Shown here piece by piece: positions 14,201-38,082 of a stretch of 38,082 nt of DNA. The position numbers and the translations under genes are program-made. The stretch is from Candidatus Schekmanbacteria bacterium RIFCSPLOWO2_02_FULL_38_14 (lineage in GTDB: Bacteria; Schekmanbacteria; GWA2-38-11). The notes beneath the pieces are model-generated. The model saw only the letters and a program-made list of their open reading frames with translations, made no database searches and was not told the origin of the DNA. The DNA lies in NCBI GenBank assembly GCA_001790855.1, contig MGDH01000039.1, positions 1 through 38,082 of the forward strand, given 5' to 3'. Position 1 is the first letter of the stretch, and every line of letters starts with the position of its first letter.

Positions 14201-14355
14201 AAATCCAAACAAAGGAAGTTCTAAATCCCAAGCACTAAATCCCAAACAAATCCAAAATTCTAAATACAAATATTCTAAACCAGTTTTGTTTAGGATTTTT
14301 AATTTTGGTCATTTGAGATTGTTTAGGATTTAGATATTGGAATTTGGAATTTTAT
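14201..14355. repeat. Long AT-rich inverted repeat built of 7/14-base units
   Basis: The nadK-recN spacer contains a left half with a 7/14-base period (CTAAATC, CCAAGCA, CTAAATC, CCAAACA, AATCCAA and so on from 14221) and a right half that is its approximate reverse complement. The outer arms 14234-14247 and 14320-14333 match at 13 of 14 positions, and an inner stem closes near 14274-14294. The whole can fold as an imperfect hairpin with arms near 48 bases. It contains no gene. Confidence 0.75.
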
Positions 14356-15444: not shown

Positions 15445-17100
15445 ATGAGTACATTGAAAAAAACTTTAAAACAAGCAATAATGGAGGCAATTGAAGTTTT
15501 CAAGAAAGAACTCGGGCAGGAAGAATTCCCTCCTCTTATTATTGAGATTCCCAAAGATGCAAAATTCGGTCATTTTTCTACAAACATAGCCCTTGCTCTT
15601 TCATCAAAATTAAATAAACCTCCAAGAAAGATTGCAGAAGAGGTTTTAAATAAATTCTCCTGCCCTGTTGTTGAAAAAACAGAGATTGCAGGAGCGGGGT
15701 TTATTAATTTTTTCATCACTGAAAAAGCCTGGCAGAAACTAATTCCTGAAGTAATTTTAAATGGAGAAAAATTCGGCTCCTCCAATATTGGAAATAATGA
15801 GAGGATACAGATTGAGTTTGTAAGCGCAAATCCAACAGGCCCTCTTCACATAGGCCACGGCAGGGGAGCAGCAGTTGGCGATGTGCTGGCAAATACCCTT
15901 GAGTTTGCTGGCTTCAATGTGGAAAGGGAATACTATATCAATGATGTTGGCATTCAGATGGCAAATATTGGAAAAACCCTTAAGGCGCGATACCTTGAAC
16001 TTTTAGGGAAAGAAACAAAATTTCCTGAAAATGGCTATCCGGGCGCATATGTGAGGGAGATTGCCGAAAAATTCAAAATTCAAAATTCAAAATTCAAAAT
16101 TCAAAATGATGATGATTTGCAGTTTTTCAGCGATTTTGCAGGAGAGAAAATCTTAGGAGGAATAAAGAAAGACCTTGAAAGTTTCAGGGTAAGATTTGAT
16201 AAATGGTTTTCTGAAAAAAGCCTTTTTGAAAGCGGAGAAGTAAAAAACTCAATTGAGCTGCTGAAGAAAAATGGTTTTATCTTTGAAAAGGAGGGCGCGT
16301 GGTGGCTCAAGGCAAGCGACTTTGAAGATGAAAAGGACAGGGTAGTCATAAAAACAGACGGTTCAACCACATATCTTGCTTCAGATATTGCCTACCATAA
16401 AAACAAGCTGGAGAGAGGCTATAAAAAGCTTGTCAATATATGGGGAGCAGACCATCACGGCTATATTCCCAGGATGAAAACCGTTGTAAGGCTGCTTGGT
16501 TACCCCGAAGAAATGCTCGCCGTGATACTCGTGCAGATGGTCAATTTACAGAAACACGGCAAACCTGTTGCCATGGGCAAGAGAGAAGGGGAGTTTGTTA
16601 CACTGAGGGAGGTAATGGATGAGGTTGGGGTTGATGCCTGTCGCTTCTTCTTTCTTGAAAGAAAAAGCAATGCTCATTTGAACTTTGACCTTGCCCTTGC
16701 AAAGGAGCAGTCAAATAAAAACCCTGTTTATTATGTTCAGTATGCCCATGCAAGAATCTGCAGTATTTTCAGCAAAGCAGAAGAGAAGGGAATAACCCTT
16801 CCAGAAATTGATAAAACTGATTTCAGCCTTCTCAATACAGAAGAAGAGCTTTCAATAATGCGTAAAATCTACCAGTTTCAGGAAATAATAGAGGTAATCG
16901 CCAATACCTGTGAACCACACCATCTTACTTTTTATCTGAAAGAACTTGTTGCCCTTTTCCACAAATATTATAATGAGCATCCGATTTTAGGAGATGAAAG
17001 CAGGCTTACAGATTCCCGTCTTGCCCTTTGTATGGCAATCAGGATTGTCCTTAGGAATGGAATGAGGCTTTTGGGAATCTCTGCGCCTGAAAGGATGTAA
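15445..17100 (+). CDS. argS: Arginyl-tRNA synthetase
   Basis: Class I synthetase that charges tRNA-Arg. The 551 residues include the N-terminal tRNA D-loop-binding domain (Arg-S N, about 1-90), SANPTGPLHIGHGRG with the HIGH motif (near residue 139), EYYINDVGIQ, the KMSK-equivalent AMGKREGEFVTL, and a C-terminal DALR anticodon-binding domain ending LLGISAPERM. Residues about 209-220 (EKFKIQNSKFKIQN) come from five perfect tandem copies of ATTCAAA (16071-16105), inserted in a region that normally varies in length. The frame is intact across it. The ribosome binding site before the ATG at 15445 is weak. Two tRNA-Arg genes lie elsewhere in the window. Confidence 0.95.
   Translation: MSTLKKTLKQAIMEAIEVFKKELGQEEFPPLIIEIPKDAKFGHFSTNIALALSSKLNKPPRKIAEEVLNKFSCPVVEKTEIAGAGFINFFITEKAWQKLIPEVILNGEKFGSSNIGNNERIQIEFVSANPTGPLHIGHGRGAAVGDVLANTLEFAGFNVEREYYINDVGIQMANIGKTLKARYLELLGKETKFPENGYPGAYVREIAEKFKIQNSKFKIQNDDDLQFFSDFAGEKILGGIKKDLESFRVRFDKWFSEKSLFESGEVKNSIELLKKNGFIFEKEGAWWLKASDFEDEKDRVVIKTDGSTTYLASDIAYHKNKLERGYKKLVNIWGADHHGYIPRMKTVVRLLGYPEEMLAVILVQMVNLQKHGKPVAMGKREGEFVTLREVMDEVGVDACRFFFLERKSNAHLNFDLALAKEQSNKNPVYYVQYAHARICSIFSKAEEKGITLPEIDKTDFSLLNTEEELSIMRKIYQFQEIIEVIANTCEPHHLTFYLKELVALFHKYYNEHPILGDESRLTDSRLALCMAIRIVLRNGMRLLGISAPERM
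16071..16105 (+). repeat. Five perfect tandem copies of ATTCAAA inside argS
   Basis: Five consecutive identical 7-base units, preceded by an extra run of A. Because 7 is not a multiple of 3, three units encode seven residues, which explains the repeated peptide KIQNSKF. The unit has no stop codon in any frame on the coding strand, so the gene stays open. Confidence 0.95.
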
Positions 17101-18476: not shown

Positions 18477-18501
18477 CTTTATGATAACAAATTCCGGGTA
18501 G

Positions 18502-18519
18502 GGGCGACTTTAGTCGCCC
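18502..18519. repeat. Dispersed small hairpin repeat (copy 3)
   Basis: GGGCGAC and GTCGCCC arms around TTTA, preceded by GGGTAGG (18496-18502). It lies between the oppF-like gene and tsaC. It forms an inverted pair with the copy at 18570-18587. Confidence 0.75.
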
Positions 18520-18569
18520 TTAATCGTTCGACTGAACTCAGGACGACTTAGCACAATTGAATAATCATA

Positions 18570-18587
18570 GGGAGGCTAAAGCCTCCC
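18570..18587. repeat. Dispersed small hairpin repeat (copy 4), inverted relative to copy 3
   Basis: GGGAGGC and GCCTCCC arms around TAAA, followed by CTACCC (18588-18593). Read on the minus strand it has the same GGTAGGGG lead-in and TTTA loop as copy 3. Three stem positions differ, and in each the partner base has changed too, so pairing is kept. Confidence 0.75.
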
Positions 18588-18691
18588 CTACCCAATCTTA
18601 TTGACAAATCTTTTTATATTAGAGAAAAAATCTATAATCTTAGATTTTTCAACTATAATGGATGGACAGGCTAATGTCAATTATCAAAGAA

Positions 18692-28634: not shown

Positions 28635-30104
<1,470 letters not shown>

Positions 30105-31058: not shown

Positions 31059-31161
31059 AGTGAATAGTCGTTAGTGAATAGTGAACAGGGATTATAGATT
31101 GATTAATTCTTTTAATATTCAATTAGTTTTGCTATTTACTATTCACTGAATACTATTCACT
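31059..31161. repeat. Inverted heptamer repeats between two tRNA genes
   Basis: The left arm (31059-31093) divides into AGTGAAT, AGTCGTT, AGTGAAT, AGTGAAC and AGGGATT. The right arm (31134-31161) divides into ATTTACT, ATTCACT, GAATACT and ATTCACT, the reverse complement family. An AT-rich 40-base centre separates them. The element occupies nearly the whole spacer between tRNA-Arg and tRNA-His. Confidence 0.85.
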
Positions 31162-31169
31162 AACTTCAC

Positions 31170-37647: not shown

Positions 37648-38082
37648 CAAATTAAAAGCCCTACATCGCTTTCTTTAACCACCCGTTTTAAAATTCCGTT
37701 GAGGTGGAAGTGACAGTTTTTGTCAATGATGTAGGGCTTATAAATTTCTCCGCAATGCCGTGTTTAAAAATTTGCTTGAACCTGGCTAACCAGTAGAGCA
37801 ACTTCTTTCCATGACATTAGGCTTCCCCGGCAGTTTTTACACTGTCATGTTTAAGGGCTTGCACACTGCCATCTTTACGTGTCGCTCTCTATTCTTTTGT
37901 TGGTTCAAGAATAGATTTTAAAATCACGCGCACCGCAGAGAATATCTTGCTCTCTAGTTACTAAGATATGTTGAGAATTCCGTCTGTCAAGAGGTAAAAA
38001 ATAAAGTTTTTTCATGTTAAAGCCAAGTCAATATGTCAGTTAACTGCCGAGTAAAAATGTCAGTAACGGTATAAAGTTTATT
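37648..38082. other. Gene-free tail with inverted and direct repeats (possible mobile element edge)
   Basis: No convincing reading frame is visible in these 435 bases. A perfect 12-bp inverted repeat, AAGCCCTACATC (37656-37667) with its complement at 37728-37739, encloses 60 bases that include TGACA and TGTCA arms (37711-37725). Near the right edge are the palindrome CAGTTAACTG (38037-38046) and two similar direct copies of ATGTCAGT followed by AAC (from 38033 and from 38057). Such clustered repeats are typical of insertion sequence ends, but no transposase is present in the window. Confidence 0.4.

Follow-up and report, generated by a model that had tools for sequence, protein, structure and literature searches.

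The window, a 38,082-nt stretch of DNA from a Candidatus Schekmanbacteria genome, carries the genes of two class I aminoacyl-tRNA synthetases, argS and cysS, each with a perfect array of tandem heptamers in its reading frame (Table 1). The argS assignment was based on TIGR00456 (E 6.6e-151; 503.5 bits, cut-off 261.65). Within this gene, exactly five copies of ATTCAAA occupy positions 16071-16105, and the array is translated in frame as KFKIQNSKFKIQN, residues 209-221 of ArgS. Sequence, TRF and TIGR00456 all confirmed the preliminary description of this DNA, which had reported five perfect in-frame copies encoding a repeated peptide, KIQNSKF. Because 7 and 3 share no common factor, every frame of ATTCAAA yields the same seven-residue peptide; all registers of the unit are free of stop codons. 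The array consists of direct units only and has no palindrome. A chance origin is excluded, as about 2e-15 lag-7 runs of this length are expected per 38 kb from base composition. An AlphaFold2 model of ArgS, built from a two-sequence alignment and unusable at a mean pLDDT of 39.6, placed residues 210-221 between two helices and was given little weight.

Table 1. Genes and heptamer arrays of the window
Feature	Position	Strand	Evidence
argS, arginine--tRNA ligase, 551 aa	15445..17100	+	TIGR00456 equivalog; solved ArgRS relatives, e.g. 3fnr
Perfect heptamer array in argS, unit AAAATTC/ATTCAAA, 5.7 copies, encodes KFKIQNSKFKIQN	16068..16107	+	TRF (period 7, 100% matches), translation
cysS, cysteine--tRNA ligase, with second in-frame heptamer array	28635..30104	+	TIGR00435, E 7e-181
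Perfect array AGCGGTC, 5.1 copies, in variable linker of CysS, encodes SGQRSAVSGQRS	29634..29669	+	
Intergenic degenerate heptamer arrays AAATCCC, AAATTCT, TTGGAAT	14221..14352	.	
Intergenic degenerate heptamer arrays AAGTTTC and AGCTGAA	18692..18756	.	
Intergenic heptamer arrays AGTGAAT / CTATTCA between two tRNA genes	31059..31162	.	

That the array is an assembly or sequencing artefact was considered, the genome being a draft of 43 contigs. However, at 40 bp the array fits within an ordinary short read, the reading frame is unbroken, and comparable in-frame arrays were encountered in many independent genomes (see below), and we regard this explanation as highly improbable.

ArgS was compared across approximately 29 other genomes, with kinship taken from the supplied labels. 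The array lies between YPGAYVREIAE and FFSDFA, in a variable linker between helices whose sequence is different in each relative and whose length varies. The array peptide is therefore not conserved, and the alignment that the preliminary description had proposed found it missing from every other ArgS among these approximately 29 genomes. In 3fnr, the best-scoring solved structure, the linker is likewise non-conserved and of similar length. The variability supports the view that this linker may tolerate sequence change. Same-order relatives carry 16 residues at this site (ELKAQNGKSLLASDDA in genome G002 and ELVQKFGDSLSNKEVE in genome G003) versus 18 in the window, a net gain of two residues that indicates that the array mostly replaces ordinary variable linker. 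The suspicion that residues 209-220 are an insertion was thus upheld in part: the segment is lineage-specific and sits where relatives differ, but only two residues were added on balance.

Heptamers were also found at the argS site of two relatives. In the same-family genome GWA2_38_11 (G001), the name-giver of the phylum Candidatus Schekmanbacteria, the linker is longer by about 34-35 residues than in the window or G002, and the extra DNA consists of other heptamer runs (GGGGCAA/AGGGCAA and AGCTGAT/AGCCGAG/AGCTAAT/AGCTGAG) surrounding a small palindrome, GCAGGCCTTAGCCTGC. The argS gene of G002 possesses (GCTCAAA)x2, AGCTCAAAGCTCAAA, in register with the window array, and both of its units, as read from the alignment, depart from ATTCAAA by the identical two transitions. 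A contig break at the argS site of G003 was examined as a possible consequence of repeats and rejected as a coincidence, its ends sharing a 17-bp overlap with no array.

We then considered the consequences of copy-number change for the frame. The gain or loss of one or two units in the argS array leads to a stop at codons 217-242 of 551, whereas changes of three units keep the frame open, which bears out the earlier expectation that a change of one unit shifts the frame. From this expectation, the preliminary description had suggested that the copy number could act as an on/off switch or be under strong selection. With such a switch, unit gain or loss would leave argS off in some cells of a population and on in others. 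Like contingency repeats, the array is a non-triplet repeat inside coding sequence whose unit number toggles the frame. Unlike them, it has a low copy number (5.7) and resides in an essential rather than a dispensable gene; truncation of ArgS near residue 230 would presumably be lethal. No off-frame arrays were found among the array-bearing asd, leuS and cca orthologues described below or in the argS relatives that were read, and the class to which the array belongs is mainly intergenic in its own genome. The switch is therefore disfavoured, and we give it almost no credence.

The wider occurrence of such arrays was assessed by counting period-7 segments with a score of at least 12 in sampled stretches, with an order-2 Markov model as the control. 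In 750 kb of the window's own genome, 44 arrays were counted at period 7, 21 at period 14 and 11 at period 21, with 0-9 at the other tested periods; the control had none at periods 7, 14 and 21. G001 contained 16 period-7 arrays in 258 kb (control 0), G002 none in 323 kb (control 0) and G003 one in 187 kb. The trait is strong in the window's family and nearly absent from the sister family, as sampled in G002 and G003. Most of the own-genome arrays (38 of 44) are intergenic and only six lie in ORFs, although a simple ORF call marks approximately 82% of the sampled DNA as coding (binomial 6e-23). The argS array is thus one of a genome-wide class of heptamer tandem repeats that lie mainly between genes. 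A stop-free strand was found in 10 of the 38 intergenic arrays, so that a stop-codon filter accounts for part of the depletion within genes. The intergenic arrays are degenerate and may have a function, and the two longest perfect arrays of the own-genome sample are those of argS and cysS. One in-frame heptamer array (YSLFTVYCS) was noted in a glycosyltransferase gene of the same genome (L095:3306-4589), which also carries a NPPSPPLTKGGNGGF peptide resembling another repeated element.

TRF also detected the other period-7 arrays of Table 1. Within the window, the AGCGGTC unit of cysS resembles the argS unit in being stop-free in all registers. Two of the intergenic array groups form inverted repeats: positions 14216-14280 and 14288-14352 make up an imperfect 65-nt inverted repeat from heptamer arrays, with arms 71% complementary, and the AGTGAAT / CTATTCA arrays form a 30-nt inverted repeat that is 83% complementary. 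Judged from their letters, these convergent pairs (14216-14352 and 31059-31162) could fold into hairpins. A different small palindromic element, the inverted repeat GGGTAGGGGCGACTTTAGTCGCCCT / AGGGAGGCTAAAGCCTCCCCTACCC, was noted at 18496-18593 and is similar in kind to the palindrome in argS of G001. A 6S RNA (RF00013, 66.7 bits) was also identified at 37743-37944 on the minus strand.

The heptamer words were found to recur in unrelated phyla. The ATTCAAA word AATTCAAAATTCAAAATTC was found in 12 of 290 genomes, compared to 2 of 290 for a reversed-pattern control, and the AGCGGTC word AGCGGTCAGCGGTCAGCGG in 7 of 290, compared to 0 of 290. The contexts of the ATTCAAA word are chiefly intergenic heptamer arrays; the genic ones comprise prepilin leaders, the N-terminus of a secreted protein, asd and leuS. 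In two different genomes (L073, L074), ATTCAAA arrays encode the leader immediately before a prepilin-type cleavage motif. The cysS unit AGCGGTC also recurs in a distant genome (L183, G240), where it lies in frame within a CCA nucleotidyltransferase-like gene.

Such sharing among unrelated phyla is what a mobile element would produce, with the array having been copied from another site of the genome or acquired by transfer, and the heptamers and small palindrome at the same argS site in G001 point the same way. Rickettsia palindromic elements are a precedent, being short repeats tolerated in frame in coding genes. The same tolerance is documented for PARCELs (PMC2996958). However, those two kinds of element have longer palindromic or 25-residue units that spread as copies, whereas the argS array has neither a palindrome nor a second genomic copy: its exact 19-mer was found in argS alone when its own genome was searched. 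By inspection, no target duplication flanks the array, the net gain is a mere two residues, units vary by locus, and the in-gene arrays of another phylum, described next, largely keep their register in place. An origin by mobility was accordingly judged unlikely.

We sought further in-gene arrays in a family of another phylum (f131; 10 genomes in 4 genera), where gene names were assigned by reading the sequences and not by a family scan. The examined matches to the ATTCAAA word lie in frame in asd, leuS, cca (CCA nucleotidyltransferase), a ROK-type kinase gene and tmk, and further in-frame matches were found in a KDO-transferase-like gene and a glycosyltransferase gene. Of the 14 period-7 arrays in 400 kb sampled from G132, half (7) lie within ORFs. 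Among the asd (L200, L209, L072), leuS (L071, L201) and cca (L202, L214) orthologues, the array occupies the same loop and nearly keeps its length, while the unit differs by species. The asd units are ATTCAAA, GAATTCA, AAATTGC, AAAATCA and AAAATGC; those of leuS are GAATTCA (perfect in G295), AATTCAA, AAATTTG/AAATTGC, AAATTCG and GAATTCT; and those of cca are ATTCAAA, GAATTCA, AAAACTC, CTGCAAA, GAAGGCA and AATTACG. The exceptions in length are extra residues in asd of G295 and in leuS of G291 and G294, and the cca gene of G294 has no array. It was noted that leuS of G294 (L237) carries a 60-nt in-frame tandem duplication, with TVEFRILNSELRIQVFTTRP present twice, that takes in the heptamer hairpin of the editing domain of LeuRS; this duplication may be genuine or may stem from misassembly.

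The copies within these arrays were found to change together. As a share of the paired between-species differences, the same change was seen at lag 7 in 0.49 for asd, 0.60 for leuS and 0.47 for cca, fractions that are descriptive and not P values, as the species are non-independent and the three genes were picked via the ATTCAAA word search. At lag 14, the fractions were 0.49, 0.62 and 0.37, respectively. Lags 5, 6, 8, 9 and 12 within the arrays gave at most 0.17, and the flanking coding sequence gave 0.09-0.12 at lags 7 and 14 (0.10-0.12 at lag 7). A second cca site was not counted as support, since its concerted signal is weaker (44/154 versus 15 expected) and identity within the array is not above that between species. 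Likeness between arrays is independent of kinship: the asd arrays of G290 and G269, which belong to different genera, are 96% identical, compared to 56% for the third positions of their flanks. Taken from the aligned letters, the concerted change of copies at mostly fixed length supports homogenisation in place.

Loci of a single genome in this family carry differing units, so that the process looks local; a genome-wide templating with one unit per genome was rejected on the same observation. In the LeuRS proteins of the family, the hairpin pattern F-x-I-x-N is retained while the units change, which indicates that a protein-level constraint acts there. For ArgS, this pattern would favour a functional reading, in which a charged, amphipathic linker is kept by selection on its peptide. 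The ArgS linker sequence, however, is not conserved in any relative examined, and selection on the protein leaves the 7-nt period across codons unexplained; we consider a functional peptide quite improbable.

Tandem heptamers as such have been described before. STRR sequences of heterocystous cyanobacteria are degenerate tandem heptamers spread through the genome. They share degenerate genome-wide heptamers with the present arrays and are set apart, by description, in units and lineage. According to the SPADE survey, heptamer repeats are the most abundant tandem repeats of intergenic regions in many prokaryotes, with "no clear clue" to their function (PMC6344855), and heptameric simple sequence repeats are enriched in Xanthomonas and Nostoc (PMC4692102). 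The arrays described here resemble those repeats (PMC4692102, PMC6344855) in their 7-bp period, their many loci per genome and their mostly intergenic placement with an intragenic minority, and they display the marks of that class: a tandem 7-bp unit beyond chance, a genome-wide period-7 excess and a predominantly intergenic location. They differ in that the unit is not G-rich, that essential genes contain perfect arrays in frame, and that the in-gene arrays of the other phylum change their unit in concert at nearly fixed length. Direct repeats of TAACTGA occur in Beggiatoaceae, Cyanobacteria and Bacteroidetes, some of them in ORFs and at the protein periphery (PMC4679880). Both sets are tandem heptamers common to distant phyla with some members in ORFs; TAACTGA repeats, however, keep to a single unit and are mostly located upstream of start codons, whereas many locus-specific units were found here in internal loops of essential enzymes, and the argS unit is ATTCAAA, not TAACTGA. 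Intergenic heptamer repeats are thus already known, while unit turnover of a concerted, length-preserving kind within essential genes appears to be undescribed, as no description of it was found in the literature searched.

We infer a slippage mechanism and neutrality for the ArgS array. Heptamer arrays would arise and spread locally through 7-nt steps of replication slippage or short-range template switching, and most of them would persist only between genes. The argS array would persist because its unit is stop-free, because it changes the net length by a multiple of three and because its linker tolerates almost any sequence; a stop-free unit and an in-frame length are both observed. Within coding sequence, only length-neutral or three-unit events would pass selection, with changes of one or two units being lost. 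A slip-and-return event could then convert a neighbouring unit with no change in length, invisible to the frame, and the array would become homogenised. Alternatively, the argS copies may be alike simply because the array is young. Of the two origins named in the preliminary description, homogenisation is supported in asd, leuS and cca of the other phylum; for argS, it is suggested by analogy with those arrays and hinted at locally, and a recent origin may apply instead. That in-gene arrays of essential genes are in general kept alike by active, local, length-preserving slip-and-return, with arrays drifting between 7-mers in concert across species, is a tentative proposal that we hold to be somewhat short of an even chance.

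The account as a whole, in which the array is a member of a local slippage or template-switching class that is tolerated in the ArgS linker and has homogenised or young copies, is in our judgement likely. A counterpoint to a purely neutral account is that the two most perfect own-genome arrays are both in aminoacyl-tRNA synthetase genes, although the numbers are small and the window was preselected. An enrichment of arrays in such genes (argS, cysS and, elsewhere, leuS) is striking and is not claimed, given the few cases and the preselected window. Rather than an on/off switch, the argS array probably represents a tolerated by-product of a heptamer-repeat type that is common in bacteria.

In-gene arrays of essential genes constitute a clean natural experiment, as the frame fixes the length and the alignable flanks fix the site. 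The turnover of units is thus directly readable and separable from regulation. Given the pattern seen in asd, leuS and cca, existing genomes and a frameshift reporter could be used to test whether such repeats are a mutational by-product or a regulatory element. If slip-and-return holds true, the 7-bp period of bacterial genomes would be a footprint of this copying and not a regulatory signal.
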